DNA from: Dissulfurimicrobium hydrothermale
Lineage (GTDB): Bacteria; Desulfobacterota; Dissulfuribacteria; Dissulfuribacterales; Sh68
DNA: 64,000 bases
Direction of reading: 5' to 3'
Assembly (NCBI RefSeq): GCF_022026155.1
Contig: NZ_CP085041.1
Coordinates: forward strand, 714,306 to 778,305
The notes beneath the pieces were generated by a model. That model made no database searches, was not told where the DNA came from, and worked only from the letters and a program-made list of their open reading frames with translations. Below are positions 21,322 to 36,270 of this stretch, piece after piece. The translations under genes were made by a program, and so were the position numbers. Positions within the stretch are counted from its first letter, which is position 1, and every line of letters begins with the position of its first letter.

Positions 21322-22275
21322 TCAATCTCGAGGGATAGGCAGGTCATCTATCCGTAGAAAGTTGTTTTTTTTCATATAATCCCTCACCCCTGCTATGATA
21401 TCGATGGCTACAGAAGGTTTTACCAGCGTGGCAGTCCCGACCTCGATGGCCGACGCCCCTGCCATAAGGAACTCAAGTGCATCGCTGGCGCTTGATATCC
21501 CGCCTATCCCTATAATCGGCACGTCGATCGCCCCGGCCACCTGCCATACCATGCGAAGGGCTATGGGTTTGATGGCGGGACCAGAGAGGCCGCCGACGAC
21601 ATTTCCAAGGGCTGGGCGTCTCTTGTCGATGTCTATAGCCATTCCAAGAGGGGTGTTTATGAGGGAGATGGCATCTGCCCCTGCCGCCGTGACCGCTCTG
21701 GCTATTTCGACTATATCCGTCACGTTGGGCGAGAGCTTGACGATTACAGGAAGGCCGGTTGCGGCCTTTACGGCCCTTGTTACCCCTGCCGCAGCGTTCG
21801 GGTCCGCGCCGATGGCCAGTCCGCCTGCCAGCACATTAGGGCATGAGATATTCACCTCTATTGCATCTATCCCGTCTGTCCCGTCAATGCGTCTTGCCAG
21901 ACTTGCGTATTCTTCTTGAGAGTTTCCGAGGATGTTGACAATGACCCTGGTATTGATCTTTCTGAGCCAGGGCAGCTTATCCCTGATAAACGCCTCTATC
22001 CCTATATTTTCAAGACCTATGGAGTTCAGGAGGCCGCACGGCGTCTCTGCTATGCGGGGCGGGGGGTTGCCCTGCCTTGGCTTCAGGGACAGACCCTTTA
22101 CGACGATTCCGCCAAGTGCGCTGAGATCGATAAGGTCGCCTATCTCCACCCCATAGCCGCATGTCCCTGAGGCAAGGAGTACTGGATTTTTCAACTTCAA
22201 TCCACCTACATCAACAGACATATCCGGAGATATATCCTGGTCTTGCGGCATTTTTACCCTGGTCGTTTTCTTCAT
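21322..22275 (-). CDS. pyrD: Dihydroorotate dehydrogenase, catalytic subunit (type 1B)
   Basis: 317 residues from ATG 22275, which overlaps the pyrK stop as ATGA; a shorter start at MSVDVGGLKLKNPVL is also possible. FMN-binding TIM barrel with LASGTCGYG, NSIGLENIG, VNISCPNVLAGG (catalytic Cys of type 1 enzymes), VKLSPNVTD and GIGGI. It oxidises dihydroorotate to orotate in pyrimidine synthesis; with PyrK it forms the NAD-dependent heterotetramer. Last gene of a five-gene minus-strand operon. Confidence 0.93.
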   Translation of the reverse strand: MKKTTRVKMPQDQDISPDMSVDVGGLKLKNPVLLASGTCGYGVEIGDLIDLSALGGIVVKGLSLKPRQGNPPPRIAETPCGLLNSIGLENIGIEAFIRDKLPWLRKINTRVIVNILGNSQEEYASLARRIDGTDGIDAIEVNISCPNVLAGGLAIGADPNAAAGVTRAVKAATGLPVIVKLSPNVTDIVEIARAVTAAGADAISLINTPLGMAIDIDKRRPALGNVVGGLSGPAIKPIALRMVWQVAGAIDVPIIGIGGISSASDALEFLMAGASAIEVGTATLVKPSVAIDIIAGVRDYMKKNNFLRIDDLPIPRD

Positions 22276-23069
22276 ATCTCCCAGTCTATCTCCGTTGAAT
22301 CTGTCACAGGCCCGTCTTTGCAGACATGAAGATAACCCCCGCTGGTCTTTTTGACCGCGCAGCCAAGGCATGCCCCTATGCCACAGGCCATCCCAGCCTC
22401 AAGCGAGGCCTCACACCTCGTTCCAAACTTGACTGTAAGGTCGTGTACAGCCCTCATCATGGGCCATGGACCGCAGGTATGGATCAATACATTTTTCTTA
22501 GAGAGGCATAGCTCCTTTTCAAGCATAGCCGTCACAAGACCCTTTTCGCCGAGGCTTCCATCTTCGGTAGTGATTAGGAGTCGTTCCGCGGATGCCTCAA
22601 ATGTCTTGACGACCGGCAATATCTCTCCTTTCGTCTTGGCGCCTAGTATCACGCTGAACGCGCCTTCAAGCCTTTTTGCCAGGAAATGCAGCGGCGCCAC
22701 GCCCATTCCGCCTCCGGCAAGGATGCGAGGTCCGCTGTGGTCAAGCCTGAATCCCCTGCCCAATGGCCCGATGATATCCAGGGAGTCACCCTCTTTTTTT
22801 TGAGAGAGGATATCCGTGCCCCGCCCTGTGACCTTATAGAGAAAGGATATATCCCCACTGTCTCCACTGTCGAAGATGGAAAGTGGCCGGCGAAGGAGCG
22901 GGTCAGACCGCAGATTGCCGTTTACGCTGAGCATGCAGAACTGTCCGGGTCTTGCGGCCCTGGCTATCTCCGGCGCCAGGATGGTCATAAGGAAGACGTC
23001 GTCAGACAACTTTTCGTTTTTTTTGATCTCTGCGCTCAGATCATATCTTGCCAAAGTTACATCCTCCAT
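22272..23069 (-). CDS. pyrK: Dihydroorotate dehydrogenase electron-transfer subunit
   Basis: 265 residues: FAD-binding barrel with RRPLSIF (the RxxS flavin motif), NAD-binding domain with ILAGGMGVAPLHFLA, and a C-terminal [2Fe-2S] loop holding four cysteines in GMACGIGACLGCAVKK and HVCKDG. It passes electrons from PyrD to NAD. It overlaps the ubiA-like gene by 13 bases and pyrD by four, so it belongs to the same transcript as the menaquinone genes. Confidence 0.92.
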   Translation of the reverse strand: MEDVTLARYDLSAEIKKNEKLSDDVFLMTILAPEIARAARPGQFCMLSVNGNLRSDPLLRRPLSIFDSGDSGDISFLYKVTGRGTDILSQKKEGDSLDIIGPLGRGFRLDHSGPRILAGGGMGVAPLHFLAKRLEGAFSVILGAKTKGEILPVVKTFEASAERLLITTEDGSLGEKGLVTAMLEKELCLSKKNVLIHTCGPWPMMRAVHDLTVKFGTRCEASLEAGMACGIGACLGCAVKKTSGGYLHVCKDGPVTDSTEIDWEI

Positions 23070-23923
23070 GTGAGGGATATGGCCGTGGCGGTAAACAAGA
23101 TGATGCTTATGGCCGCGTTGCAGTTAAAAAATGCGGCGTCCATCTTTGAAAGGTCATCGGGCTTTACAAGCCTTCCTTGTGCAAACAGCAGTACAAAGAC
23201 CGCAAGGACGCCGGCAAAGTATATCCAATTTAGACGAGCGAGCAATCCCGCCGATGCAAAGAGGATGAAGGCAGCCATATGTGATAGCCTCGATATGATG
23301 AATGCCTTTTTTGCGCCGAATGCGGCAGGAATGGATTTCAGCCCCTCCTTCCGGTCGAATTCCGTATCGAGGCAGGCGTAGAGGATATCAAAGCCGGCCA
23401 TCCAGAATAGAAACCCAAGACTCAATACAATGGGCACAGACTCGATGTCGCCCCTGACCGCTATCCAGCCGGCGGTCGGGGCTATCCCGATCGAAAGGCC
23501 GAGAAAGATATGACAGAGGAATGTGAACCGTTTCATGTATGAATACAGCAGCAGGAGTGCAAGGACAAACGGAGAAAGGATGAATGCAAGGTGGTTAAGT
23601 TCATACGCCGACAGAAAATACAGCATGGCGGCGGCTATCGTTAGGCCCCAGGCTTCTTTCAGTCTTATGTCCCCCCTAGGCAGGGCACGTTGCGCCGTTC
23701 TGGGATTTTTTGCATCAAAAGGGAGGTCAACGATGCGGTTGAAGGTCATTGCGGTGGTCCTTGCCCCAACCATACCAACAAGGATCCAGAGGGAGGTCTT
23801 TAAATCAGGTGGGCCGCCTGCGGCCAGAAAGGCCCCGAGGAAGGCAAAGGGCAGGGCGAAGACGGTGTGTTCAAACTTGATCATCTCAAGGATCGTCTTT
23901 GTCTTTTTTATAACATAGGTCAT
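23057..23923 (-). CDS. mqnP: UbiA-family prenyltransferase, probable MqnP
   Basis: 288 residues from ATG 23923, which overlaps the ubiX stop by ATGA. Polytopic membrane protein (about eight helices). The first aspartate-rich motif is NRIVDLPFDAKNPRT and the second is DTEFDRKEGLKSIP, the Mg-diphosphate sites of the family. Together with the UbiX- and UbiD-like genes upstream it forms the set that attaches the prenyl tail and decarboxylates 1,4-dihydroxy-6-naphthoate in the futalosine menaquinone route. Substrate choice (naphthoate versus 4-hydroxybenzoate) is inferred from the lineage and context. Confidence 0.82.
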   Translation of the reverse strand: MTYVIKKTKTILEMIKFEHTVFALPFAFLGAFLAAGGPPDLKTSLWILVGMVGARTTAMTFNRIVDLPFDAKNPRTAQRALPRGDIRLKEAWGLTIAAAMLYFLSAYELNHLAFILSPFVLALLLLYSYMKRFTFLCHIFLGLSIGIAPTAGWIAVRGDIESVPIVLSLGFLFWMAGFDILYACLDTEFDRKEGLKSIPAAFGAKKAFIISRLSHMAAFILFASAGLLARLNWIYFAGVLAVFVLLFAQGRLVKPDDLSKMDAAFFNCNAAISIILFTATAISLTWRM

Positions 23924-24519
23924 ACGCCGCATCTCCCTTCCCATCGTTTTAGGTTTTCTATATTAAAACCTAGGAATTCTGCTATCCTTCCTGCAAAAAA
24001 CAAGGCCATCTCGTCAATGTTCCTTGGTTTGTGATAGAAGCTAGGCATGGCCGGATAAATGACCGCACCCGCCTCCTCTGCCAAGAGCATATTCCTTAAA
24101 TGTATGCGGTTGAAGGGGGTTTCCCTTGGGACGAGTACAAGCGGGCGTCTTTCCTTCAAAAAGCAGTCCGCCGCCCTGTGTATGAGATTTCCACTTATGC
24201 CGTGGGCGATTGCTGCAAGGGTACCCATGGTGCATGGGAGGATCACCATTGCCTGCCATCTTGCACTGCCGCTCGCGGGCCGGGCCGTAAGGTCATCCAC
24301 CCCGTACACGACATCGGCTGTTTTCTTCAGCATCCTGCATCCTTCGTCTCCAAGTTCAAGTCTCGTCACCTCCATGCCAGCCTTGGATATGACAAGGTGG
24401 ACCTCTTGGCCAAGGTCTTTCATTATCCCCATGAATTTCAGGCTGTAGATGGCTCCGCTTGCGCCTGTGATCGCGAGGAGGACAGGGGCATTTTCTGTCC
24501 AGTTTATTTGGTTTGTCAC
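23920..24519 (-). CDS. ubiX: UbiX-type flavin prenyltransferase
   Basis: 199 residues. Typical flavoprotein motifs: ITGASGAIYSLKFM at the N-terminus, LPCTMGTLAAIAHG in the middle, RRPLVLVPRETPFNRIHLRNM near residue 130-150 and AMPSFYHKP after it. It joins dimethylallyl phosphate to FMN to make the prenylated FMN cofactor needed by UbiD decarboxylases. It starts three bases after the ubiD-like stop, which fits direct supply to that enzyme. Confidence 0.93.
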   Translation of the reverse strand: MTNQINWTENAPVLLAITGASGAIYSLKFMGIMKDLGQEVHLVISKAGMEVTRLELGDEGCRMLKKTADVVYGVDDLTARPASGSARWQAMVILPCTMGTLAAIAHGISGNLIHRAADCFLKERRPLVLVPRETPFNRIHLRNMLLAEEAGAVIYPAMPSFYHKPRNIDEMALFFAGRIAEFLGFNIENLKRWEGRCGV

Positions 24520-24522
24520 TTC

Positions 24523-25980
24523 TCAGCCCCTCCGATCAAGACCGAGTTTGGGCCACAGCCTGTCTATCCTGGTCTTTACATCCCTGTCCATCTCTATTAT
24601 ATCCGGCCATTTTCTCATAAAACCCTCCTCCGGCCATTTTTTGGTACAATCTATGCCCATCTTGCTCCCGTAATGCGGAAGCGGCGAGGCGTGGTCAAGG
24701 GCGTCTACCGGGCCGTCTACAAATACCGTGTCGCGCCGCGGATCCACGTTGTTTCCAAGTCTCCAGAGGCAGTGAGAGACGTCTTGGACGTCTACTTCTT
24801 TGTCAAAGACACAAATGATCTTGGAGAACATCATCTGACCCAGACCCCAAATGGCGTGCATGACCTTCTTGGCATGACCCGGATAGCGCTTGTCTATGGA
24901 AATGAAGACTAGGTTGTGGAAGATGCCCTCGATAGGCAGGTTCATATCGATGACCTCGGGCATGGTCTTTTTGATCAGAGGTAAAAAAAGTCGTTCGGTG
25001 GCCTTTGCCATGTAACAGTCTTCCTGAGGGGGTCTGCCTACTATCGTAGCCGGGTATATGGCGTCTTTTCGGTGGGTCATGCAGGTTACATGGAAGACCG
25101 GGTAGAGATCGGCAAGGGAATAATAACCCGTGTGGTCGCCGAACGGGCCCTCCATACGTCTCTCACCGGGTTCCACATAACCTTCAAGCACGATCTGTGA
25201 ATAGGCCGGGACCTCGAGGTCAATGGTCAGGCATTTAACGAGCTCGACAGGTTCGTTTCTTAAAAATCCGGCGAAGATCACCTCGTCTATGTCTTCAGGG
25301 AGCGGGGCTGTGGCCGCGTAGGTCATGGCTGGATCAGGGCCTATGGCGACCGCCACTGGGAGGCGTTTTCTTAGGCGCTCTGCGACCCTGTAGTGCTGGG
25401 CGCCCCCTTTGTGGGCGTGCCAGTGCATGCCGGTGGTGTTTTTGTCAAATATCTGCATCCTATACATGCCAGCGTTTCTTATGCCTGTCTCAGGGTGCCG
25501 GGTAAACACAACCGGAAGCGTGATGAACGGCCCCCCATCCTCGGGCCAGCAGTGAAGCACGGGTAGAAGGCCTAGATCAACATCTTCCCCCTTATAGACC
25601 ACCTCTTGACACCTGGCCTTTTTGACCAGTTTTGGCATGGCCGAGTCCATGCGTCTGAGTTTCGGGATGAGCCTCAGCTTCTTGATTATGGTGTCCGGCG
25701 CCTCCGCCTCGATAAAGTCCATGACCTCTTCGCCAAGGGCGTTTAGGTTAGGCACTTCAAGGGCCATAGCCATCCTTTTATAGGAACCGAAGGCGTTTGT
25801 AAGTACAGACATCTTGAAACCCCGGACATTTTCGAACAGCAGCGCGGGGCCATAGCGTTTTGATACCCTGTCCGTTATCTCGGTTATCTCAAGACGTGGG
25901 CTCACCGGTTCCTTTATGCGGACCAGTTCGCCTGCGGCGTCAAGCCTCTTTACAAATTCCTGCAGATCGCGGTAGGCCAT
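24523..25980 (-). CDS. mqnL: UbiD-family decarboxylase, probable menaquinone-pathway MqnL
   Basis: 485 residues from MAYRDLQEFV at 25980, where AAAGGAG gives a good ribosome site; the frame extends further upstream without one. Family landmarks: GMYRMQIFDKNTTGMHWHAHKGG (prFMN/metal pocket), the E-R-E region EGPFGDHTGYYS, and PGHAKKVMHAIWGLGQMMFSK. As first gene of the operon with ubiX and the UbiA protein, it most likely decarboxylates the prenylated naphthoate on the futalosine route. UbiD in ubiquinone synthesis is less likely in an anaerobe. Confidence 0.85.
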   Translation of the reverse strand: MAYRDLQEFVKRLDAAGELVRIKEPVSPRLEITEITDRVSKRYGPALLFENVRGFKMSVLTNAFGSYKRMAMALEVPNLNALGEEVMDFIEAEAPDTIIKKLRLIPKLRRMDSAMPKLVKKARCQEVVYKGEDVDLGLLPVLHCWPEDGGPFITLPVVFTRHPETGIRNAGMYRMQIFDKNTTGMHWHAHKGGAQHYRVAERLRKRLPVAVAIGPDPAMTYAATAPLPEDIDEVIFAGFLRNEPVELVKCLTIDLEVPAYSQIVLEGYVEPGERRMEGPFGDHTGYYSLADLYPVFHVTCMTHRKDAIYPATIVGRPPQEDCYMAKATERLFLPLIKKTMPEVIDMNLPIEGIFHNLVFISIDKRYPGHAKKVMHAIWGLGQMMFSKIICVFDKEVDVQDVSHCLWRLGNNVDPRRDTVFVDGPVDALDHASPLPHYGSKMGIDCTKKWPEEGFMRKWPDIIEMDRDVKTRIDRLWPKLGLDRRG

Positions 25981-26197
25981 GAAAGCTCCTTTGTTTAAGG
26001 AAAATTTAACGGTTGTTCTCAGCAAGTGTAAGGTCTTTTGTAAAAAAGGCAAGAAATGCAACGTGGGTTACCTGTATCTTTTTACATCCATTACCTTACA
26101 TGTATCTGCTATCCATTCCGGATATGCATGAATCCATTATGAAAGAGTTGTAGACCTAGTTGGTGAATACAATAATGAAGTTAGACTGGTGATTTAG

Positions 26198-26341
26198 AAA
26201 TTGGTTTATACACAGCACGCCCGGAAAGATGCTCAGAAACTATTTTTAGCAGTTTGAAAGAAGAAACACAGTCACTTTTGATGGTTCTGCGTGAAAATCC
26301 ATTTAAAATCCACTACTTAAAAATTGGCTGGTGATTTGTCC
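26198..26341 (+). pseudogene. Relic of a Txe/YoeB-type toxin gene
   Basis: Translated from AAA at 26198 the start reads KLVYTQHARKDAQKL, strongly like the KLVYTKxAxKDAKKL opening of Txe/YoeB toxins. The next frame then gives SSLKEETQSLLMVLRENPFKI, matching the family's LLEILRENPF block, and the first frame returns with LAGDLS (family LVGDLS). Two frame changes and stops make it non-functional. The rest of the domain is missing where intron-like sequence begins. No antitoxin gene could be read upstream. Confidence 0.55.
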
Positions 26342-26369
26342 ATTCACCCTCAATAATGACTACGTCCTC

Positions 26370-27810
26370 TGTACGTGAATCTCGCTGCCTGATTTCGAGG
26401 ATAGCGAAAGTATTAGCCTAAGGCAAGGGCGCCGCCGCGAGGTGGGGCCTAAAGGAAGCCGGAGTGCAAAGCTGTGAGCCGACGAACAGAAACGTCATAT
26501 AAGATATAAGGCGAGTCTCCGGGTAAGACAGCACAGCATGCCAGAGCCCTGGATTGATTGCGCGCCATTCAGACGCTTACCCGTTGGACGTCCCATTTTA
26601 CTGTCCTGCAAAATGCTCAGGGGATACGGTAAATGGCGCGGTTGTGCAGTGGAAGTTGATGCTCGCCGTCCATGGCTCAACCCCCTATCGGGCACCTGCG
26701 TCTGTCCCATTCCGCGGTCCTGCGGAATGGTAACGTCCTTATCCGGGGAGACCTGTCTCTAATGCTGGGCAGATTCCTGTTCAGTGAGAATATGGCAGGG
26801 GCTATAGGTACCCAAATGTCCCGGCTTCTCCAGGAGGGAGTTTTTGCCTGGGAGGGATACGAACCCAAGGAAAGCGGATAGGACAGGAAATTGTCCAGCG
26901 CCATACTGGGCAACCTTTGTGGTGAAGGGGCAGGAGTCAGCAGGGGCCATAGCAGGCGAAGGAATCTGCCATGGGCGCCGTGGCAGTTAGAAATGAGCCC
27001 TGGAAAACAGGGATAGACTCACCTCGCCGAAGGGCCGAACACGAAGAAAGGGGGAATACATCTATGAGTTCTGACACGTTGTTGAATCTGTACGGGGGAG
27101 AGGTGGCAGTGCGCGTCATGGAAAGGCGGACTGCTGGTTTTGATCTGCTTGAGCATATACTTGAGCCTGACAACCTCAACCGTGCCTGGAAACAGGTAAA
27201 GGCTAACAAAGGGCTCCAGGAGCTGATGGAGTTACCATAGCGCAGTTTCCGGCATACATCGAGGAGAGATGGCACGGTATAGGCGCTGCCATACTGGATG
27301 AACATATGTCCTATCTCCGGTCCTGAGGCTGAAGATACCGAAACGTGACAGAGGAACGCCCTTGGATACTACCCTAATGGACCGAGTGATCCAGCAGGCC
27401 ATGGCCCAGGTTCTAATGCCGATGTTCGACCCGGAGTTCCCGGAATCGAGCTTTAGTTTCCGTTCGGGCCGTTCCGCGTATAACCAGTCTACCAGGTACG
27501 GAACTACATCATAAAGCAGGGTTACAGGATAGCAGTGACATGGCCCTTGCGGGATTTTTCGATATGGTAAACCAGGATGTGCTGATGAGCCGCATATCCC
27601 GCAAGGTTAAGGATAAGAGGGTTCTTGGGCTCATCAGCCGGTATCTCCGTGCCGGTGTGGTCAACAAGGGACGCCCGTAGGCCATCCGCAAGGGCATGCC
27701 CCAGTGAGGGCTTTTTTCACCGCTTCTTGCAAATATCCTGAAGATGACCTGGATAGGGAACTTGAGGAAAGGGAGTCCTCGATTTGTAAGATATGCTGAT
27801 GACTTTATCT
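26370..27810 (+). mobile_element. Truncated group II intron
   Basis: The stretch from about 26370 to 27060 is non-coding but has the character of group II intron domains I-IV, including AACAGAAACGTCATATAAG near 26490 and GTCAGCAGGGGCCATAGCAG at about 26935 just before the ORF. A broken intron reverse transcriptase follows (27064 on) and stops just after its YADD box. The remaining RT, maturase and domains V and VI are absent, so the intron cannot splice or move. The left boundary is uncertain because I could not place a clean GUGYG start. Confidence 0.75.
27064..27808 (+). pseudogene. ltrA: Intron-encoded reverse transcriptase (LtrA-like), frameshifted and truncated
   Basis: The opening LLEHILEPDNLNRAWKQVKANKG is the standard N-terminus of group II intron RTs. 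After an early frameshift, readable pieces in changing frames are AQFPAYIEERWHG, LKIPKR, MDRVIQQAMAQVLMPMFDPE, FSFRSGRSAYNQ, LAGFFDMVNQDVLMSRIS, LGLISRYLRAGVVNKG and finally RFVRYADDFI with the catalytic YADD. Several stops and indels interrupt it. The thumb and maturase regions are deleted. Confidence 0.85.
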
Positions 27811-27818
27811 AAAGTAAA

Positions 27819-27863
27819 GCCGGCGTAGGATGTGCCTTGTTCCTCAGCACATCCTACGCCGGC
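27819..27863 (-). terminator. Strong hairpin after the octaheme cytochrome gene
   Basis: A perfect 17-base stem (GCCGGCGTAGGATGTGC at 27819-27835 with its complement at 27847-27863) and 11-base loop. It begins 16 bases after the cytochrome stop codon. The following minus-strand T-run (TTTACTTT) is short, so it may work as a terminator or as an mRNA-stabilising end. Confidence 0.7.
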
Positions 27864-27878
27864 TATTTACAACAGAGG

Positions 27879-29210
27879 TCACTTCCCGTAGCGTTTCTGG
27901 TAGAACTCCTGGATCTTCGCGCGATCCTCCTTGGAGAGCCCCTGCTTCAGCCAGCAGTTGGCCGGTTCGTTGAGGACCTCGGCCGTGACGCCCGGCAGAA
28001 GTGCTTCCGCCTCGGGAAGGAACCTGCTGTAGAAGTCCTTCGCCACATCGTAAAAACCGTGCCACTGGACATAGTCGGGCCCCATCATGGAGGCCCCCAT
28101 GCGGGCTCTACGACCTTCGTGATGCCAGATCTCGAAGTAGTCCCACTGGATCTTCTTAGAGAAGGGGGATGGACCAAGTTTGCCCGCTGCCTGGAGCTTG
28201 GCCATGATGACCTTGGCGGGCTCTCCGAACTTGTGGTTGTAGAGCTCCACGGCGTAATCGTACTGGACATAGAAGTTGTTGACCCAGTCCGAGGCGTGAC
28301 AGTTGAAGCAGACCTTCTCCATCTCATTGCGTTTCTGCTGCCAGTTGGCCGTGTGGATCGATACCTCTGGCCTGAGCGTCCAGGAGAGGCGCGTGCCAAC
28401 GTCATGGGTCTTGGCCACTCCTTTGGCTGCGCCCATGTGGCAGGTGGCGCAGGTGGGGGCGGCATTGTAATCCTTCCCCAGGATCCAGGAACGCGAATCG
28501 AGATTCATCCGCCCCTTCAGAGTGGCATAGGTGACGCCGTGTTTGCTCTCGGCATAGATCTCCTCTTGGGGATGGTCGGGGCCCAGGTGGCAGTAGCCGC
28601 AGCCCTCTGGCTGACGGGCGATAGAGACAGAGAAGGTATGGCGGCTGTGGCAGACGGAGCAGGAGCCCTTGGAACCGTCGGGGTTGATGCGACCGATGCC
28701 CTCGTTGGGCCAGGTGGCGGGGTCAAGCTTGCCGTTTTTGAGCACCTTTACGGTGCTGCCGTGGCATTGAACGCAGCCACTCACTGTCGCTGGCGGTCCC
28801 TCCACCACGTCGCCGAGCACGTTGTCAAGCGAACCCAGAATCTTACCTGCTTGAGCGTGATGGCTAGCCTCGAACTGGGCTGTCTCGTCGGGATGGCATT
28901 GGCTGCACTGCTTGGGGGTGACGACGACGGAGATGCGGTGGCCGTAGTGCTCGAAGCCGTCGGGACGGCCCTTGTCTACCTGGTGGCACTCGAAACATGC
29001 GATGCCCGCCTTTGCGTGCCGGCTCTGCGCCCACTGTTGCACTACCACTGGGTCCGCCTCCTTCTCGTGGCAGGCGATGCAAGCCCTGCTCTCAGGAGAG
29101 TTGGCCGCCAGAAGTGCCTTCATGGCGGACGCAGTCTTTGGGCCTACTGCGAGGATCAAGGCCGCTAAGGTGGCTAAAATGATAGAGAAATGGTACCAAC
29201 CTTTCCTCAT
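27879..29210 (-). CDS. Octaheme c-type cytochrome of the hydroxylamine oxidoreductase family
   Basis: 443 residues from ATG 29210 (AGGAAAG just ahead); an upstream ATG lacks a ribosome site. A signal peptide (FSIILATLAALILAVGPKTASA) sends it to the periplasm. Eight CxxCH sites are present: CIACH, CFECH, CSQCH, CVQCH, CSVCH, CGYCH, CATCH, CFNCH. The C-terminal HHEGRRARMGASMMGPDY...WHGFYDVAKDFY is the conserved HAO-family ending. Such proteins oxidise hydroxylamine (nitrifiers, anammox) or reduce nitrite/NO (epsilon-type). A Tyr in GPDYVQWHG may be the residue that cross-links the P460 heme in true HAO. No partner cytochrome gene adjoins. Composition is richer in GC than the neighbours and mobile relics flank both sides. 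Confidence 0.88.
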   Translation of the reverse strand: MRKGWYHFSIILATLAALILAVGPKTASAMKALLAANSPESRACIACHEKEADPVVVQQWAQSRHAKAGIACFECHQVDKGRPDGFEHYGHRISVVVTPKQCSQCHPDETAQFEASHHAQAGKILGSLDNVLGDVVEGPPATVSGCVQCHGSTVKVLKNGKLDPATWPNEGIGRINPDGSKGSCSVCHSRHTFSVSIARQPEGCGYCHLGPDHPQEEIYAESKHGVTYATLKGRMNLDSRSWILGKDYNAAPTCATCHMGAAKGVAKTHDVGTRLSWTLRPEVSIHTANWQQKRNEMEKVCFNCHASDWVNNFYVQYDYAVELYNHKFGEPAKVIMAKLQAAGKLGPSPFSKKIQWDYFEIWHHEGRRARMGASMMGPDYVQWHGFYDVAKDFYSRFLPEAEALLPGVTAEVLNEPANCWLKQGLSKEDRAKIQEFYQKRYGK

Positions 29211-29267
29211 GGTCTTTCCTTTCTTGGCAGTTTGATAAAAATTCCCTATTATAAGGGGAGCATAAAA

Positions 29268-29530
29268 AAATGATACTGTCAACTATTTTGTGTGAATTTT
29301 AAAATAGGCAAATTGGGTCGCACCTTGCCTATTGGATTTGACCTCCAGGTCAGTTCCATTTTTAATGATATAAATGCGAGAAGCCTGTAACAGGCATCCT
29401 CCCCGGCTACGATCTCCATGGGCCTTGTCCTGCGCCTGAATTCCTTGTTTAGCCGCTCAATGATGTTCGTTGTCCGCAATGATATCCATTCCTCTTCCGG
29501 AAAGTTGAAGAATGTCAGACAGGAATACCT
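29268..29530 (-). pseudogene. 3' end of an IS256-type (mutator) transposase with IS right end
   Basis: Minus-strand translation gives FFNFPEEEWISLRTTN, ERLNKEFRRRTRPMEIVAGE and a final ILKFTQNS stop at 29279, the C-terminus of IS256-family transposases (normally about 400 residues). The catalytic DDE region is missing. ATACTGTCAACTATTTTGTGTGAA at the end resembles the terminal repeat of such elements. It lies about 60 bases upstream of the octaheme cytochrome start. Confidence 0.8.
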
Positions 29531-29565
29531 TCTCAAGACCCGAAAGTCCATCCATAATCCCAAGC

Positions 29566-29859
29566 ATGACCGATCCGCTACCTTTGATACAGAACCCCCT
29601 GGGATATCCGCTGTTAGATGATTTGCCTCGCCCTTGGACCGTTTATATTCATTACGACCCAGATAGTGCGTCAGCTCCGCTTGTTTTTGTTATTTGGGAT
29701 AACAAATATTATATAAGTGTGCCCCTTTTTTACCCTATTTTATTTTCACATAAGAAAAGTTATAATATTTATTTTTTTCCATTTGGCTATAAGTTGTGGA
29801 ATCAGCTCCGGCGGGTCCTGAATATCTGCATCGATTGGAATGACAGCCATTCCAGATGA
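29566..29859 (+). other. Gap with a doubtful 97-residue reading frame
   Basis: Between the IS256 relic and the next relic, one frame starting MTDPLPLIQNPLGYPLL is open for 97 codons. Its first half (LPRPWTVYIHYDPDSASAP) reads like protein, while the second half is AT-rich and low-complexity-like. I do not recognise a family. The stretch also holds an 8-base hairpin (29686-29706, TTTGTTAT/ATAACAAA) and a 7-base one at 29837-29855. It may be another decayed fragment. Confidence 0.2.
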
Positions 29860-30029
29860 AAAATCAAGCCCTGTCGTTAAAGCTGCTCCTTTTGATTAGA
29901 TACCTCCCCCGGTAACAAACCCTACCCCCCATTGTCAAGACAAAAAACAGGCCTCTTTACAGGCCTCTTTAAGGTGGATTAATTGAAATAGTCGTGATTT
30001 AATCTGATACTTCTTGTATAGATGGAATG

Positions 30030-30183
30030 AAATAATGAAATAAGGAGGAGTCAGATGACAACGGATCAGAAGATTATCAAGAACAAGCTTGGGCTGCCGG
30101 ACAACACCGCCCTTGCAAGTTTTGAGTTCTTCATGTGCAATCATGACAAACTGTTTTTGTTGTCAATGCAAGTCATTTTATAA
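30030..30183 (+). pseudogene. 5' remnant of an IS481-like transposase gene
   Basis: ATG at 30055 sits eight bases after a strong AAGGAGGAG and starts MTTDQKIIKNKLGL, which I recognise as the usual N-terminus of IS481-like helix-turn-helix/integrase transposases of this bacterial group. After residue 14 the similarity ends and the frame runs into a stop at 30181. The catalytic part is lost. The fragment's promoter and ribosome site remain just upstream of rarA. Confidence 0.5.
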
Positions 30184-30202
30184 TGGGAAAAGAAGACCAG
30201 CC

Positions 30203-31528
30203 ATGAAAGAAGGTGGAAATATCCCGCTTGCCGAGCGTATGAGACCGGCAGATCTGAGTGAGGTTGTGGGCCAGCAGCACCTCCTTGGGCCCGGCAAGGT
30301 CTTGAGCGGCATAATAGCCGGCGGCAGGCTCCCATCCATAATACTCTGGGGGCCGCCAGGCTCAGGAAAGACGACCATTGCAAGGCTTCTGGCCAGGGCC
30401 GTGAATGCGAATTTTGTGAGTTTTTCCGCGGTGCTCTCTGGGGTTAAAGAATTGAGGGCGGTGATAGAAGAGGCCAGGGCGGATACGAAAAAGTACTTGC
30501 GGCCAACGATCCTCTTTGTGGATGAGATACACAGGTTTAACAAGGCCCAGCAGGACGCCTTTCTCCCCCATGTGGAACAGGGGGTCATAACGCTCATAGG
30601 CGCGACCACGGAAAATCCGTCTTTTGAGATCATCTCGCCGCTTCTTTCAAGGTGCAAGGTCCTGACCCTTGATCCCCTTGACGAAGTGGCCTTGAAAACG
30701 ATCCTTGACCGGGCGCTGGCGGACAGGGAAAGGGGATTGGGTGCGCTTGAGCTCTCTATAGAGCCTGAGGCTGCGGAATTGCTGATAGGACGCGCGGATG
30801 GAGATGCAAGGACGCTTCTGAACAACCTTGAACTTTCCGGGGAGCTTGCCGCCTCTGCAAGGGCTGAGGGCAAGGGGGCGCTTATAACCGTAGGTCTTGT
30901 AGAAGAGGCGATACAGCAGAAGGCCTTGCGCTACGACAAGGCCGGTGAGGAACACTACAATCTTATCTCCGCCTTTCACAAGAGCCTGAGGGGCAGCGAC
31001 CCTGATGCCGCCCTTTACTGGATGGCGCGGATGTTGGCGGCAGGGGAGGAGGCGCATTATATCGCAAGGCGGATGATCCGCTTTGCGTCAGAAGACGTGG
31101 GGAATGCAGATCCTAGCGCCCTCTCGATAGCTGTTTCTGCCCTGCAGGCGTTTGATTTTCTTGGTCCGACGGAAGGCGAACTCGCCCTCGCCCAGGCCGT
31201 GGTATATCTTGCAACCGCGCCCAAGAGCAACGCAGTCTATATGGCCTATGGCGATGCACAGGCGGACGCTAGGCGGCTCGGTTCCCTTGCTGTGCCGCTT
31301 CACATAAGAAATGCCCCGACGAGGCTCATGAAGGAGCTGGGCTACGGTGAGGGTTACCACTACGCCCATGACTATCCGGACGCCCTTGTACCGCAGGAAT
31401 ATCTGCCGGCTGAGCTCAAAAACCGCATATACTATAGGCCTACTGACAGGGGATACGAGCATATTGTTAAGGAGCGTCTTGAAAAGTGGCGGAAGATCCT
31501 TGCACAGCGAAGGGCTATCAAGAGGTAG
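30203..31528 (+). CDS. rarA: Replication-associated recombination protein A (RarA/MgsA)
   Basis: 441 residues from MKEGGNIPLAERMRP at 30203; the longer frame before it runs through the transposase relic and is unlikely to be coding. AAA+ ATPase with Walker A GPPGSGKTTIA, Walker B VDEIHRFN, sensor 1 GATTENPSFE and arginine finger SRC. The C-terminal tetramerisation region includes HKSLRGSDPDAALYWMARM. It acts at stalled forks with SSB and the clamp loader. Length is normal. Confidence 0.94.
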   Translation: MKEGGNIPLAERMRPADLSEVVGQQHLLGPGKVLSGIIAGGRLPSIILWGPPGSGKTTIARLLARAVNANFVSFSAVLSGVKELRAVIEEARADTKKYLRPTILFVDEIHRFNKAQQDAFLPHVEQGVITLIGATTENPSFEIISPLLSRCKVLTLDPLDEVALKTILDRALADRERGLGALELSIEPEAAELLIGRADGDARTLLNNLELSGELAASARAEGKGALITVGLVEEAIQQKALRYDKAGEEHYNLISAFHKSLRGSDPDAALYWMARMLAAGEEAHYIARRMIRFASEDVGNADPSALSIAVSALQAFDFLGPTEGELALAQAVVYLATAPKSNAVYMAYGDAQADARRLGSLAVPLHIRNAPTRLMKELGYGEGYHYAHDYPDALVPQEYLPAELKNRIYYRPTDRGYEHIVKERLEKWRKILAQRRAIKR

Positions 31529-31629
31529 TAATCTCTGATTTGAATTTTGCCTTGCACGATCCCGACGTCGGTGATTGACACGGCTGTGGAGTTTTGTTAT
31601 CAGAGTGATGTTGATTTGTCCATCCAGAT

Positions 31630-31717
31630 GCCGGAGTGGTGGAACTGGTAGACGCGCTGGACTCAAAATCCAGTAGGCCCTGCGCCTGTGAGAGTTCGAT
31701 TCTCTCCTCCGGCACCA
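31630..31717 (+). tRNA. tRNA-Leu (anticodon CAA)
   Basis: Acceptor GCCGGAG pairs with CTCCGGC at the 3' end, followed by A and an encoded CCA. The anticodon stem CTGGA/TCCAG encloses loop CTCAAAA with anticodon CAA at 31664-31666. A long class II variable arm and T arm GAGAG-TTCGATT-CTCTC complete it. It reads UUG codons. Confidence 0.97.
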
Positions 31718-31817
31718 TCAGGTTTATCAGGTTTATCGAAAATTTGTCCCGCAGCCCTTTATATCAGATAGATTGGGCTTATAATAGGCCTAAATTTATA
31801 TATCGGGTATCCCTTCC

Positions 31818-32366
31818 ATGATAGGTTTCGACACCTCGGTGTTTCCAACGCTTAATTTTCGTTCCAGGGAGGAGTTCTGGGGTCTTGTCGACCGACTTAG
31901 GGCGTTTTTTGACCGTTATTGCAAGGGACATCCGGCAATTGAGGAAAAGGCGGTTATGCTCAAGACCGCATTCGATAGGCTCGATCCCTTTATCCAGTCT
32001 TATACAGCCGAGGTCTGTCCTTATTGCGGCACCGTTTGTTGTGCGATGCGTCACGGCGTCCCGGAATTTGCTGATATCGTCGGGTTTCTTGCGATGGGTC
32101 TAGATGTACCGCTCTATGACCTCAGCCGCGATATGGGTGGCGCATGCCAATTCATGGGCAAGGCTGGCTGTTCGCTCAGGCGGATTGAAAGGCCGTATAG
32201 ATGCACCTGGTATTTCTGCGACCCGCTTCTTAAGCAGATCGAGATAGGGCCTGTTTCCCATTACAGGCGTTTTATAAGGGATGTGGAAGGGCTGGCGGCG
32301 GCGCGGGGAGGGCTCATGGCGGTGTTTTATGGGATATGGTCGGAAAAGGCTGGAGATCGGCCATGA
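31818..32366 (+). CDS. YkgJ-like cysteine-cluster protein
   Basis: 182 residues, soluble. Cysteines are grouped as CPYCGTVCC (about residues 67-75), a Cys in GGACQF, GKAGCSL and YRCTWYFCDP (about 105-135). The spacing with RP(Y)xC resembles the YkgJ family (CC...CxFL...GCxLxxxRPxxCrxxxC), which is thought to bind zinc or an iron-sulfur cluster. Function unknown. Its stop overlaps the start of the CDP-alcohol transferase gene (ATGA), so the two are translationally coupled. Confidence 0.6.
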   Translation: MIGFDTSVFPTLNFRSREEFWGLVDRLRAFFDRYCKGHPAIEEKAVMLKTAFDRLDPFIQSYTAEVCPYCGTVCCAMRHGVPEFADIVGFLAMGLDVPLYDLSRDMGGACQFMGKAGCSLRRIERPYRCTWYFCDPLLKQIEIGPVSHYRRFIRDVEGLAAARGGLMAVFYGIWSEKAGDRP

Positions 32367-33403
32367 GGCTTACAGCCAATCACCTTACAGTCTTAAGGGT
32401 TGCACTCCTCCCGCTTCCATATTTCCTCGTCTATGGTGGAAAGATGGAGCGTGTGGCAGCCGTAGCCGCCTTTGCAGTCCTTGGGATCACCGATTATTTG
32501 GACGGCCTGCTTGCCAGGAGGGACGGCGGCACCAAGCTAGGCGCCTTATTGGATCCTTTGGCTGATAAGATCTTTGCGGCGGTTACCTTGATTCCCATTG
32601 TGGACCTCCGCATCCTCCCCATGTGGGTTGTATGGCCTATTTTTTTACGTGAGTTCCTGGTGACGGAGATGAGGAGGTTTCTCTTGGTGGAGAGGCTCGA
32701 ACTCCCAGTCACAGAGCTTGCAAAGATCAAGACGACGCTCCAGATGACCGGTGCTGGCCTTATTTTGCTTACCGATGTATTTCCTGACAAGACGGTATCT
32801 GCAGCCTTTCTTTCAGGGGCCTTGCTTGCAAGCCTTTTTCTGGCAATAGGGCTCTATTGGCGCAACGGTTATGTTTCTGAAAGGATAAAGACCGCCCTCG
32901 GGTTTCTCGTTTTGGGGCTTTTCGTGCTCATATTTTTTAGTGCGCCGACGGCGAATCTTGTATATGGCATCGTGATGCTAGGCATAACCTTTATCTCTGC
33001 TTGGCGTTACATAACAGCTGGGTTGCCCGCTTGTGCAAAAAAAGGTCTCTTGGTCCAAGGTCGGCTCATTCTTGCCCTTGCATTTCCTCTCATCCCATTG
33101 GGGCTTATGACCAACGTCCAGACTGGCGTAACTGGCGTTGTCGTCTTCATTATTGTTTTTGAATTTGTCGCCCAAGGTATCGACATGTGGGCCCTCAAAG
33201 AAGGCCTTGTGGATATGGCATGGGTCAAGCCTTTTGTATGTCTGCCGGCCGGCATGGTTATATTGGCCGTTGGCGTCAACATCTTTGGGTCTTCCGATGG
33301 CATCAGGTTATATCTGTTGGCGACTTCTTTAATGTCGGGCGGCTATTTGATCCTTGACGGCTTGATCCATCGGCGTCTAATCTGGAGGCAACGATGTATC
33401 TGA
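32363..33403 (+). CDS. CDP-alcohol phosphatidyltransferase with extra C-terminal membrane domain
   Basis: 346 residues. The N-terminal 170 carry the full CDP-alcohol transferase signature DYLDGLLARRDGGTKLGALLDPLAD (split here: DYLDGLLAR, then G and DxxxD), closest to PgsA-type phosphatidylglycerophosphate synthases of about 180-200 residues. The remaining 170 residues add about six hydrophobic helices not found in ordinary PgsA. The start is coupled to the upstream cysteine-cluster gene, and the end overlaps dgt by ten bases. It likely makes a phospholipid headgroup at the inner membrane; the extra domain is unexplained. Confidence 0.8.
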   Translation: MRLTANHLTVLRVALLPLPYFLVYGGKMERVAAVAAFAVLGITDYLDGLLARRDGGTKLGALLDPLADKIFAAVTLIPIVDLRILPMWVVWPIFLREFLVTEMRRFLLVERLELPVTELAKIKTTLQMTGAGLILLTDVFPDKTVSAAFLSGALLASLFLAIGLYWRNGYVSERIKTALGFLVLGLFVLIFFSAPTANLVYGIVMLGITFISAWRYITAGLPACAKKGLLVQGRLILALAFPLIPLGLMTNVQTGVTGVVVFIIVFEFVAQGIDMWALKEGLVDMAWVKPFVCLPAGMVILAVGVNIFGSSDGIRLYLLATSLMSGGYLILDGLIHRRLIWRQRCI

Positions 33404-34512
33404 ACAATGGAAATGAACTTTATGAAGGGAGAGGAGGGCGGGCATTTTCAACCGTCAGGGAAGAGATAGAGGCCAGGGAAAGGATCATTCTTTGCAAACA
33501 GGCCTGTCTCAGTTCGGAGACGAGGGGCAGGCGTGTATATGTTGCGCCTTGTCCTATCAGGACGGCGTTTCAGAGGGATAGGGATCGCATCGTTTATTCC
33601 AAGGCGTTTAGACGCCTTAAGCACAAGACCCAGGTCTTTCTCTCACCCATGGGAGATCACTATCGGACCCGTCTTACACATACCCTGGAGGTGGCTGAAA
33701 TCGCCCGCACGATAGCGAGGGCGCTGCGCCTTAATGAAGACCTCGCCGAGGCTGTAGCGCTGGCCCATGATCTGGGCCATACGCCTTTTGGTCATGCCGG
33801 TGAGACCATTTTGAATGAGATCGTGCCGGGCGGTTTCTCGCATTGTTCTCAGAGTATCAGGGTGGTTGACGTGCTTGAAAACGGTGGCATGGGTCTGAAT
33901 CTGACTTATGAAGTAAGGGACGGTATCCTCAAGCACTCCAAGGGGTTCGGTGAGATCATCCCGAAAAACCTGGATGACTGGGCCCAGACCGTTGAGGGTA
34001 GGGTGGTCAGGATAGCAGATGTAATAGCATATTTGAGCCATGACCTTGATGACGCTATAAGAAGCAGTGTAATAAGTGAAAGCGATGTCCCTGTTGAGTG
34101 CCAGGAGGTCCTTGGAGAGAGTCACAGTGCCAGGATCTCTTCCATGATAAGGGATGTGATTCAGAATACCAAGGTCACCGATGATGGCGAGATGGTTTTG
34201 GGTATAAGCGGGCATGTTTATGATGCAATGCTCGAATTGAGGGCATTTTTGTATGAAAACGTTTATCGCGCCCCACAGGTCCATAATGAATTTGAAAAGG
34301 CAAGGAAGATACTCTTTGATCTCTATAACTATTTTCTTACCCATAGAGACAGGTTCTTCAAGGAAAGGAGGAGATTCCTCGAGGAGGACGTAGTAGATAC
34401 TGAAAACAACGTCTCCTATGAGAGGAGTGTCTGCGATTTTATAGCAGGGATGACGGATCGCTACGCCCAGGATCTTTTTACCAGGATATTCGTGCCCTCA
34501 CCTTATGTCTGA
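33394..34512 (+). CDS. dgt: Deoxyguanosinetriphosphate triphosphohydrolase-like protein
   Basis: 372 residues, HD-superfamily. Metal ligands are visible in RLTHTLEVAEIAR and the HD pair in AHDLGHTPFGHAGE; AFRRLKHKTQVF and RVVRIADVIAYLSHDLDDA are further hallmarks. It removes triphosphate from dNTPs and so tunes nucleotide pools. It matches the shorter, broad-specificity dGTPase class rather than E. coli Dgt (about 500 residues). It overlaps the neighbours at both ends. Confidence 0.9.
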   Translation: MYLNNGNELYEGRGGRAFSTVREEIEARERIILCKQACLSSETRGRRVYVAPCPIRTAFQRDRDRIVYSKAFRRLKHKTQVFLSPMGDHYRTRLTHTLEVAEIARTIARALRLNEDLAEAVALAHDLGHTPFGHAGETILNEIVPGGFSHCSQSIRVVDVLENGGMGLNLTYEVRDGILKHSKGFGEIIPKNLDDWAQTVEGRVVRIADVIAYLSHDLDDAIRSSVISESDVPVECQEVLGESHSARISSMIRDVIQNTKVTDDGEMVLGISGHVYDAMLELRAFLYENVYRAPQVHNEFEKARKILFDLYNYFLTHRDRFFKERRRFLEEDVVDTENNVSYERSVCDFIAGMTDRYAQDLFTRIFVPSPYV

Positions 34513-35366
34513 ATTGAGACGGCGGTTCCCCCCAGACCCGGCTCATCAGGCGGAATAATCCCTTTAGGGACGATGCCTGCCGCCTCTCCGCCTAGAATAT
34601 ATCCCCCGTCAAGTCGGATTATTGCCCCTGTCATAAAGGTAGCGTCCCTGACGAGAAAATTGACCGCCTGTGCGACTTCATGGACTGCACCCGTGCGCTT
34701 TAGCAGGGTGTGATCGATGATGGCCTTCTTTTCATCTTCGCAGAGCAACCCCCATCCCCTTGTCCCTGGGCCGTGGCGTGTATCAAAGAAGCCTAGCATC
34801 AGTTCATTCACCCGTACCTCCGGTGCCGCCTCCCTTGCCCATGTCTCTGTAAGCGTCCGAATGGCCCTGTTTGACAGGGAATAGCAGTCGTGAAACACCT
34901 TTGCCGCTGGACCGCACCTGCCTATAATTCCTGCTATGGACGATATGTTTACCACGGTCCCGTTTCCGGTTTTTTTTAAAAGAGGTAGGGCCTGTTTAAA
35001 GAGCATCCACTTTGCGGTGATGGTCGTGTTGAATTCAAGCTCCCACTGTCTCTTGGTATATTCGCCATGCACTATCGGCCAACCTCCGCGCTCTATGTTG
35101 TTTATGAGTATGTCGAGGCGCCCGAAACGCCTCATTGTCTCGTCTATCACCTTCTCGGCACCCCCGGGTGCCGTAAGATCGACCGCCACCGCGTGGTATT
35201 CTGCGCCCGCGTTCCTTAGTGTTTTGTGCATGTTGGGCAGTTCTTCTAGCCAGTCGTAATATGTTACCACGCACTGAACCCTCATCCTTGCAAGGCCTGC
35301 CGCTATGGCAAGGCCTATTCCCTTTATGGCGCCGGTCACGATGGCTGTTTTCCCAGAGAGTTTCAT
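34503..35366 (-). CDS. Short-chain dehydrogenase/reductase, atypical active site
   Basis: 287 residues. Rossmann start KTAIVTGAIKGIGLAIA and NNIER identify the SDR fold; NISSIAG supplies the catalytic Ser. The Tyr motif reads YSLSN where nearly all SDRs have YxxxK, so the lysine is replaced by Asn. A C-terminal GGYILGG after RLDG is normal. Oxidoreductase activity may be lost or altered. It converges on dgt with a ten-base overlap. Substrate unknown. Confidence 0.8.
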   Translation of the reverse strand: MKLSGKTAIVTGAIKGIGLAIAAGLARMRVQCVVTYYDWLEELPNMHKTLRNAGAEYHAVAVDLTAPGGAEKVIDETMRRFGRLDILINNIERGGWPIVHGEYTKRQWELEFNTTITAKWMLFKQALPLLKKTGNGTVVNISSIAGIIGRCGPAAKVFHDCYSLSNRAIRTLTETWAREAAPEVRVNELMLGFFDTRHGPGTRGWGLLCEDEKKAIIDHTLLKRTGAVHEVAQAVNFLVRDATFMTGAIIRLDGGYILGGEAAGIVPKGIIPPDEPGLGGTAVSIQT

Positions 35367-35475
35367 TGCAACCCTTTGTTTATCTTGTCAATAATTAAAA
35401 TTTATGGCCTTTAAAGATATTTTATATTATAATATAAAAATAAAAATTTTTCTTTAACCTCCACAGGAGAACCCG

Positions 35476-36270
35476 ATGTACGCACCCAAAGACAGCCAGG
35501 GTCCCATTGTCCCTGTAAGATTTGATCTGAACAGTAATTTTACCTTTTCATGCGGAAAGGATTCCGCTTGTTTTACGAAGTGTTGCAGAAATATCAAGAT
35601 CATGCTTACTCCTTATGACATTATCATGATGAAAAAGGAGCTAGGCCTGACCTCAGATGAATTTCTTTTTTTATTTACTGAGCCTGGCTTGATCGCGGCT
35701 ACCGAGCTCCCAATCCCGATCTTGAAGGTCATGGATGAAGAAATCAGGGCCTGCCCGTTTCTCAAGGAAACCGGCTGCTCAATATATAGCGTAAGGCCGC
35801 TTACGTGCAGGTACTATCCTCTTGGGGCAGGCATATTCCACAATAGAGACGCATCGTCTGACGAGCGTTTTTTCGCTATGATAAAGGAACCACACTGCCT
35901 AGGGCATTTATCGGAAAGGGAGTGGACGGTCAGGGAATGGATTGAAAATCAAGGGATAAATCGATATGAAGAGGTGAATGCAGGCTGGGTTGGATTGATC
36001 CTCAAGAGGAAATCCCTTGGCCCATTTGTGGATATCTCCGAAAAGACCTTGCAGATGTTCTTTATGGCCTGTTACAACATAGACGCCTTCAGGCGTTTTG
36101 TGTTCGAGAGCAGGTTTCTGGATATCTATATAGTTCCCAAAGAGAGGCAGGAAGAGATTATTGCGGATGATGTGTCGGCCCTCGATTTCGGTGTTAAGTG
36201 GTTGGAAACGACACTTCTGGGATCCAGAAATTTCAGCATTAGACAATACTCCACAGATGCGATAGATTAA
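35476..36270 (+). CDS. YkgJ-family zinc/iron-chelating cysteine-cluster protein
   Basis: 264 residues. N-terminal cluster FSCGKDSACFTKCCRNIKI, then CPFLKETGCSIYSVRPLTCRYYPLG is the diagnostic YkgJ signature. The eight or so cysteines should bind Zn or Fe-S; function is unknown. The C-terminal 130 residues contain no recognised motif. The start has AGGAG about eight bases upstream. It lies just ahead of the ribosomal operon promoter and is a second YkgJ-like protein within 4 kb. Confidence 0.85.
   Translation: MYAPKDSQGPIVPVRFDLNSNFTFSCGKDSACFTKCCRNIKIMLTPYDIIMMKKELGLTSDEFLFLFTEPGLIAATELPIPILKVMDEEIRACPFLKETGCSIYSVRPLTCRYYPLGAGIFHNRDASSDERFFAMIKEPHCLGHLSEREWTVREWIENQGINRYEEVNAGWVGLILKRKSLGPFVDISEKTLQMFFMACYNIDAFRRFVFESRFLDIYIVPKERQEEIIADDVSALDFGVKWLETTLLGSRNFSIRQYSTDAID

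Follow-up and report, generated by a model that had tools for sequence, protein, structure and literature searches.

In genome annotations, members of this octaheme cytochrome family often bear the name hydroxylamine dehydrogenase, which suggests nitrification. One gene of the family lies among remnants of mobile elements in the genome of Dissulfurimicrobium hydrothermale, and the locus raises the question of what kind of enzyme this gene encodes, how it came to be there, and what it may do in its host. We analysed the 64,000 nt stretch of contig NZ_CP085041.1 that surrounds it (positions 714,306 to 778,305), here called the window; coordinates given without a locus name are positions within it. 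The features at the locus are:

26431-27035, plus strand: group II intron RNA remnants (Rfam RF02001 at 26431-26663, 74 bits; RF01998 at 26899-27035)
27060-27812, plus strand: decayed intron-encoded reverse transcriptase (PF00078, E 9e-6)
27818-27864, minus strand: putative terminator directly 3' of the octaheme gene, a perfect 18-bp inverted repeat with an 11-nt loop
27879-29210, minus strand: octaheme c-type cytochrome gene including its stop codon, 443 aa with an N-terminal Sec-like signal (ORF, motifs, Pfam and PDB matches, model)
29211-29240, minus strand: purine-rich leader with a ribosome-binding-like sequence, AAGAAAGGAAAG, ahead of the octaheme ATG (direct reading)
29272-29563, minus strand: C-terminal remnant of an IS256-family transposase with element end (PF00872)
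29922-29947, no strand assigned: IS3-family element end of 26 bp (copies elsewhere in the host genome)
30056-30181, plus strand: short ORF without Pfam match, probably the "IS481-like" relic of an earlier note on this DNA

The octaheme gene is a single unbroken ORF, with its ATG at 29210 and its stop codon ending at 27879, and codes for eight CxxCH motifs. The protein matches the Pfam profile Multi-haem_cyto (PF13447, E 1.6e-23). Its closest PDB sequences are IhOCC (4qo5), then HAO, HAOr, and HDH. The earlier note had described an intact eight-CxxCH protein, and the uninterrupted frame together with these matches to the HAO superfamily bears this out.

The relic field around the gene is real, but differs slightly from its first description. 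The group II intron relic reported on the 3' side is corroborated by the two Rfam matches and the PF00078 fragment. The reverse transcriptase remnant carries frameshifts and stops and breaks off just past the YADD motif, so that the ORF is broken and truncated, and the Rfam search of this flank returned no domain V match. The reported IS256 relic upstream was also recovered, as 61 C-terminal residues that match Transposase_mut (PF00872, E 1e-11), together with a 59-bp element end that recurs elsewhere in the host genome at 92%. The "IS481-like" assignment could not be confirmed, while the IS3-family end had been overlooked. IS3-family copies of about 1.29 kb that are 99.5% identical are found elsewhere in the host genome (loci L159 and L160). 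Between 29248 and 29282, a TTGACA on the IS256 end (29282-29277) points outward and a perfect TATAAT (29253-29248) lies in the octaheme leader. A hybrid promoter composed of these two elements was considered and rejected: they are spaced 23 nt apart, and a consensus scan of the minus strand was empty.

The protein does not match the ammonia-forming nitrite reductases of the octaheme (ONR) or pentaheme (NrfA) type. All eight heme motifs are CxxCH, with no CxxCK as at the catalytic heme of ONR and NrfA, the NrfA profile models score below cut-off, and the AF2 model of the protein (pLDDT 88.6) reaches VIA-align Z scores of only about 11 with NrfA and ONR. The best fold match of the model is IhOCC 4qo5 (Z 31.4 over 379 residues, 32% identity); Z is 21-24 to HAO, HAOr, and HDH, with 22-24 to 1fgj/4n4j.

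The active site bears on the direction in which an enzyme with this fold may work. The Asp267-His268 pair of Nitrosomonas europaea HAO corresponds, in an alignment through the PDB chains, to Asp212-His213, which is invariant in all 45 family members aligned. The position of the cross-linking Tyr467 is taken by Trp383, and this tryptophan is likewise invariant (45/45 relatives aligned). In the same register, a Trp occupies this position in the reducing HAO 6h5l as well. The register of Trp383 was set from the conserved Pro and Gly around the motif and thus comes from alignments, not from superposed structures. With Trp383 in place of the cross-linking tyrosine, no P460 would be expected to form, which would favour reduction. 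Two publications describe octahemes that lack the cross-link tyrosine as reductive, and as the great majority of those found outside anammox bacteria (PMC12758564, PMC8940962).

Judged from its sequence, the enzyme thus falls outside the classical HAOs: it keeps the Asp-His pair, but has Trp383 where these carry the P460 tyrosine. It has the eight-heme fold of P460-type HAO, and lacks both the cross-link tyrosine and dedicated partners nearby. With the reductive octahemes it shares membership of the HAO superfamily without this tyrosine, and homology to an assayed member. The earlier note had placed the protein in the HAO family by an HAO C-terminal signature. The family assignment stands in the broad sense, as a reductive-type octaheme without the P460 tyrosine, but the signature does not, as Tyr467 is the very residue that defines HAO in that region. 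Both the lack of this tyrosine and the gene neighbourhood point away from nitrification.

The assayed member is BOGUAY_0691, the orange cytochrome of Beggiatoaceae. Both terminal PCR primers of BOGUAY_0691 are present without mismatch in a locus from a Guaymas Basin MAG (L020), the product of which has the same length of 511 aa; from the exact primers and equal length, we take the L020 protein to be the orange octaheme itself or one nearly identical to it. Aligned over 451 columns, it shares 50% identity with the window protein. Three activities have been described for BOGUAY_0691 in vitro, as a nitrite reductase, as a hydroxylamine oxidase, and as a hydrazine oxidase; the nitrite reductase activity was 0.31 umol/min/mg for the partially purified native protein and much lower for the recombinant one (PMC6449678). 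As the protein is also described as an oxidase in vitro, and showed low activity towards nitrite once purified, these assays do not settle the direction in vivo.

The window protein might accordingly be seen as an oxidative hydroxylamine oxidoreductase or hydrazine dehydrogenase, which would oxidise NH2OH or N2H4 with the quinone pool or periplasmic cytochromes as electron acceptors. It has the HAO superfamily and the Asp-His pair in common with such enzymes, and its 50%-identical relative is described as oxidising both substrates in vitro. The invariant Trp at the cross-link position argues against this, as do a score of 83 with the NCBIfam HDH model (cut-off 900) and the surroundings of the gene. 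Among the ORFs at 22000-36000, none codes for an adjoining NrfH, HaoB, c554, or cM552, in agreement with the earlier note, and the complete host genome has neither a heme-copper oxidase nor a heme-copper NO reductase. We consider an oxidative role unlikely. An NrfH-like quinol partner elsewhere in the genome, which the earlier note had proposed to look for, did not turn up either: no NapC/NrfH protein exceeds the Pfam cut-off in the complete host genome.

A scan of one genome per species yielded 58 octaheme loci. The four closest to the window gene (L005 to L008), from MAGs labelled Acidobacteria or Aminicenantes, all share one gene cluster in which order and strand are conserved and the octaheme gene comes last: an Rrf2-type regulator (PF02082), a hemerythrin (PF01814), a single-chain NO reductase (qNOR; PF22085 and PF00115), a cupin (PF07883), and the octaheme cytochrome. 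The cluster occupies the following positions:

L005, 4003-9242: Rrf2 to octaheme
L006, 3973-9242: Rrf2 to octaheme
L007, 4052-9287: Rrf2 to octaheme
L008, 4060-9256: Rrf2 to octaheme

A more distant octaheme gene (58% identity, L009) is directly followed by a NorC-like gene. Elsewhere in the family, the neighbours are NapC-type tetrahemes (in the order of the host), a pentaheme (in another clade), or Rnf genes (in Spirochaetes). Ozemobacter-type genomes carry paired, adjoining octaheme genes (L026, 7923-10869; L027, 1701-4716).

The search for recognised NO-forming nitrite reductases covered NirK (TIGR02376) and NirS-type cytochrome d1 (PF02239). NirK is found neither in the cluster-bearing genomes, which are draft MAGs, nor in the host; cytochrome d1 is not found in these draft MAGs and gives only a marginal match in the host. 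It is conceivable, though we hold it to be doubtful, that the relatives have a partial denitrification module without nir genes, in which the octaheme fills the place of the NO-forming nitrite reductase, and that the octaheme travels between phyla alone and is kept without an NO reductase in the host. In such a module, the octaheme would convert nitrite to NO and the qNOR would convert NO to N2O, with Rrf2 and hemerythrin for the sensing and buffering of NO. Our literature search found no paper linking octaheme, NO reductase, and Acidobacteria. The Rrf2-hemerythrin-qNOR-cupin-octaheme cluster, in draft genomes that yielded neither NirK nor NirS, is a concrete candidate for an NO and N2O source that has so far gone unrecognised, and one that can be tested; of all parts of this analysis, it most deserves such a test.

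Octaheme scaffolds can act as wires, and the window protein might be a pure electron-transfer cytochrome, serving metals or other proteins, with no substrate chemistry of its own. That no partner enzyme adjoins it in the window would fit. However, Asp212-His213 is invariant, as in the catalytic HAOs, the nearest relatives are consistently linked to an NO reductase, and nitrite reductase activity has been measured in the 50%-identical relative. We judge a role in electron transfer only to be improbable, on a par with an oxidative role.

The gene might also be a dying one, intact by chance after its transfer and no longer used, given that it stands alone among decayed elements and without the qNOR cluster that is present elsewhere. 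The pattern of substitutions speaks against this. Pairwise dN/dS between the window gene and the nearest MAG gene is 0.08, and although 57 base changes could be polarised, only 8 polarised amino acid changes fall on the window branch (6 on the L005 branch), none of them at a heme-binding Cys or His. The eight heme motifs, the signal, the leader, and the terminator are all retained. From these substitution patterns, we conclude that the gene is kept under purifying selection, and a gene in decay is still less probable than the two preceding alternatives. The proposal that it was kept while the mobile sequences decayed fits the intact frame and these values.

As to its origin, the closest homologues of the window protein are encoded by two MAGs labelled Acidobacteria (87%-89% amino acid identity), followed by a third such MAG at 76% and an Aminicenantes-labelled one at 77%; these phylum labels, and with them the phylum of the donor, are those of the record titles. 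DNA identity to the nearest two MAG genes is 85%, and the homology is confined to the gene. The host RpoB, in contrast, is only 52% identical to RpoB of the two nearest octaheme MAGs (tblastn), while it is 58%-61% identical to that of Deltaproteobacteria-labelled genomes and 86% to that of the single genome available from its family. The tree places the window protein with the two nearest MAGs (support 100/99), in a clade of five members (100/100) that is separate from the homologues found in the host order. Although distant octaheme homologues occur in many genomes of this order, none of its other 45 genomes has a close copy; matches with E <= 1e-82 are found in only two of them, at 49% and 56% identity. 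The tree and this survey of the order both favour the acquisition that the earlier note had proposed. In AU tests, a clade that unites the window protein with the nearest homologues of the order is rejected (p 1.6e-5), as is one that unites it with a larger set of these (p 1.5e-4). A clade of the four nearest MAG proteins that leaves out the window protein is not quite rejected (p 0.063); the window protein may thus be sister to all four, and nesting alone does not fix the direction of transfer.

Composition points the same way. GC3 of the octaheme gene is 0.777, the highest among the gene calls of the window, compared to 0.577 +/- 0.065 for the 38 other genes called in the window when the ribosomal stretch is set aside (z 3.1), and the MAG copies have a GC3 of 0.82-0.92. 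On the window branch, 42 GC>AT changes are opposed by 8 AT>GC changes, as would be expected if the gene drifts from a GC-rich donor towards its host. The G+C contrast noted earlier had been taken against ribosomal genes, which are an AT-rich outlier in the window, and that comparison falls away; the contrast itself holds via GC3. Within the ribosomal operon, the stretch from about L14 to L6 (43511-45989) has a GC3 of 0.22-0.25 with seemingly sharp edges, compared to about 0.5 in the ribosomal genes before it and 0.58 in most of the window. It is possible that this part of the operon was replaced from an AT-rich source. In an empty-site comparison at the octaheme locus, mgsA was found in relatives, but ubiD/ubiX do not adjoin it there, so that no empty site came out of this comparison.

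From the tree, the gene-confined DNA identity, the composition, and the absence of a close copy in the order, we consider it well supported that the octaheme gene was acquired from outside, from a lineage close to the Acidobacteria-labelled MAGs. The window thus offers a well-documented case in which the octaheme crossed between phyla without its neighbours. That this acquisition was "recent", as had been claimed, is unsupported: with a dS of 0.93 between the window gene and its nearest known relatives, the date of transfer is not fixed. Vertical inheritance with loss in the sampled relatives, the closeness to the MAGs being due to reverse transfer or shared conservation, could appeal to the distant homologues in the order and to a direction that the tree alone leaves unfixed, but it is very improbable in the face of the AU tests, the RpoB identity of 52% as against 89% for the octaheme, the top-ranking GC3, and the five-gene cluster common to the MAG loci and absent from the window.

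Our best reading of the window gene is an orphaned periplasmic nitrite or N-oxide reductase. We consider it fairly likely that it codes for a soluble periplasmic octaheme of the reductive type, acquired horizontally, which reduces a nitrogen oxide, most likely nitrite, and works alone in its host. Electrons would be taken up by the bis-His hemes and passed on to heme 4 (CVQCH, residues 146-150), with a predicted open site lined by Asp212 and His213. There the nitrogen oxide, most likely nitrite, would be reduced to NO, hydroxylamine, or ammonium. In the relatives, the adjoining qNOR could remove NO formed as product or by-product. In a host without NO reductase, the octaheme would act by itself, probably in detoxification of nitrite or hydroxylamine or in ammonification beside an epsilon-HAO-like octaheme and Hcp, and would receive its electrons from a cytochrome or quinol donor that is not dedicated to it.

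The host has two further octahemes, one of 509 aa that is IhOCC-like and one of 423 aa that is epsilon-HAO-like. The former (L152, 421-6052) is preceded by a c554-like multiheme protein and lies in an oxidative-stress cluster with a Fur/PerR-type regulator, rubrerythrin, peroxiredoxin, desulfoferrodoxin, and ferritin. The latter (L153, 840-5949) lies beside an Hcp-type prismane, a ferredoxin, and a NapH-like Fe-S protein; these genes resemble the reverse-HURM inventory (PMC3701875), but without NapC. Any of the proteins from these two clusters could serve as donor to the acquired octaheme.

The octaheme itself is ordinary in kind, a reductive octaheme cytochrome, and is informative through the context of its relatives. 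Its closest solved fold, IhOCC from Ignicoccus hospitalis (4qo5), has, according to the alignment, Val at the position of His213 and Phe at that of Trp383, and carries a long insert before heme 8; it is archaeal and, going by its published title, membrane-associated. The anammox HAOr (Kustc0457/0458, 6h5l) shares the Asp-His pair, the Trp at the cross-link position, and the fold (Z 23), but is only 27% identical and has a partner subunit without counterpart beside the window gene. N. europaea HAO (1fgj) shares the eight CxxCH motifs, the fold (Z 23), and Asp267-His268, and differs by the Tyr467 cross-link and its HaoB, c554, and cM552 neighbours, both of which are missing for the window gene. 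The epsilon-HAO/reverse-HURM system of Campylobacterota likewise has a reductive octaheme without the critical tyrosine (PMC3701875); it has a NapC/CycB-like partner, which the window gene lacks, and the L153 octaheme of the host is closer to it. BOGUAY_0691 differs in its length of 511 aa, its extra loops, its placement on another branch of the tree, and the lack of an NO reductase neighbour in L020, but shares with the window octaheme the eight CxxCH motifs, the Trp at the cross-link position, and a soluble form with a signal.
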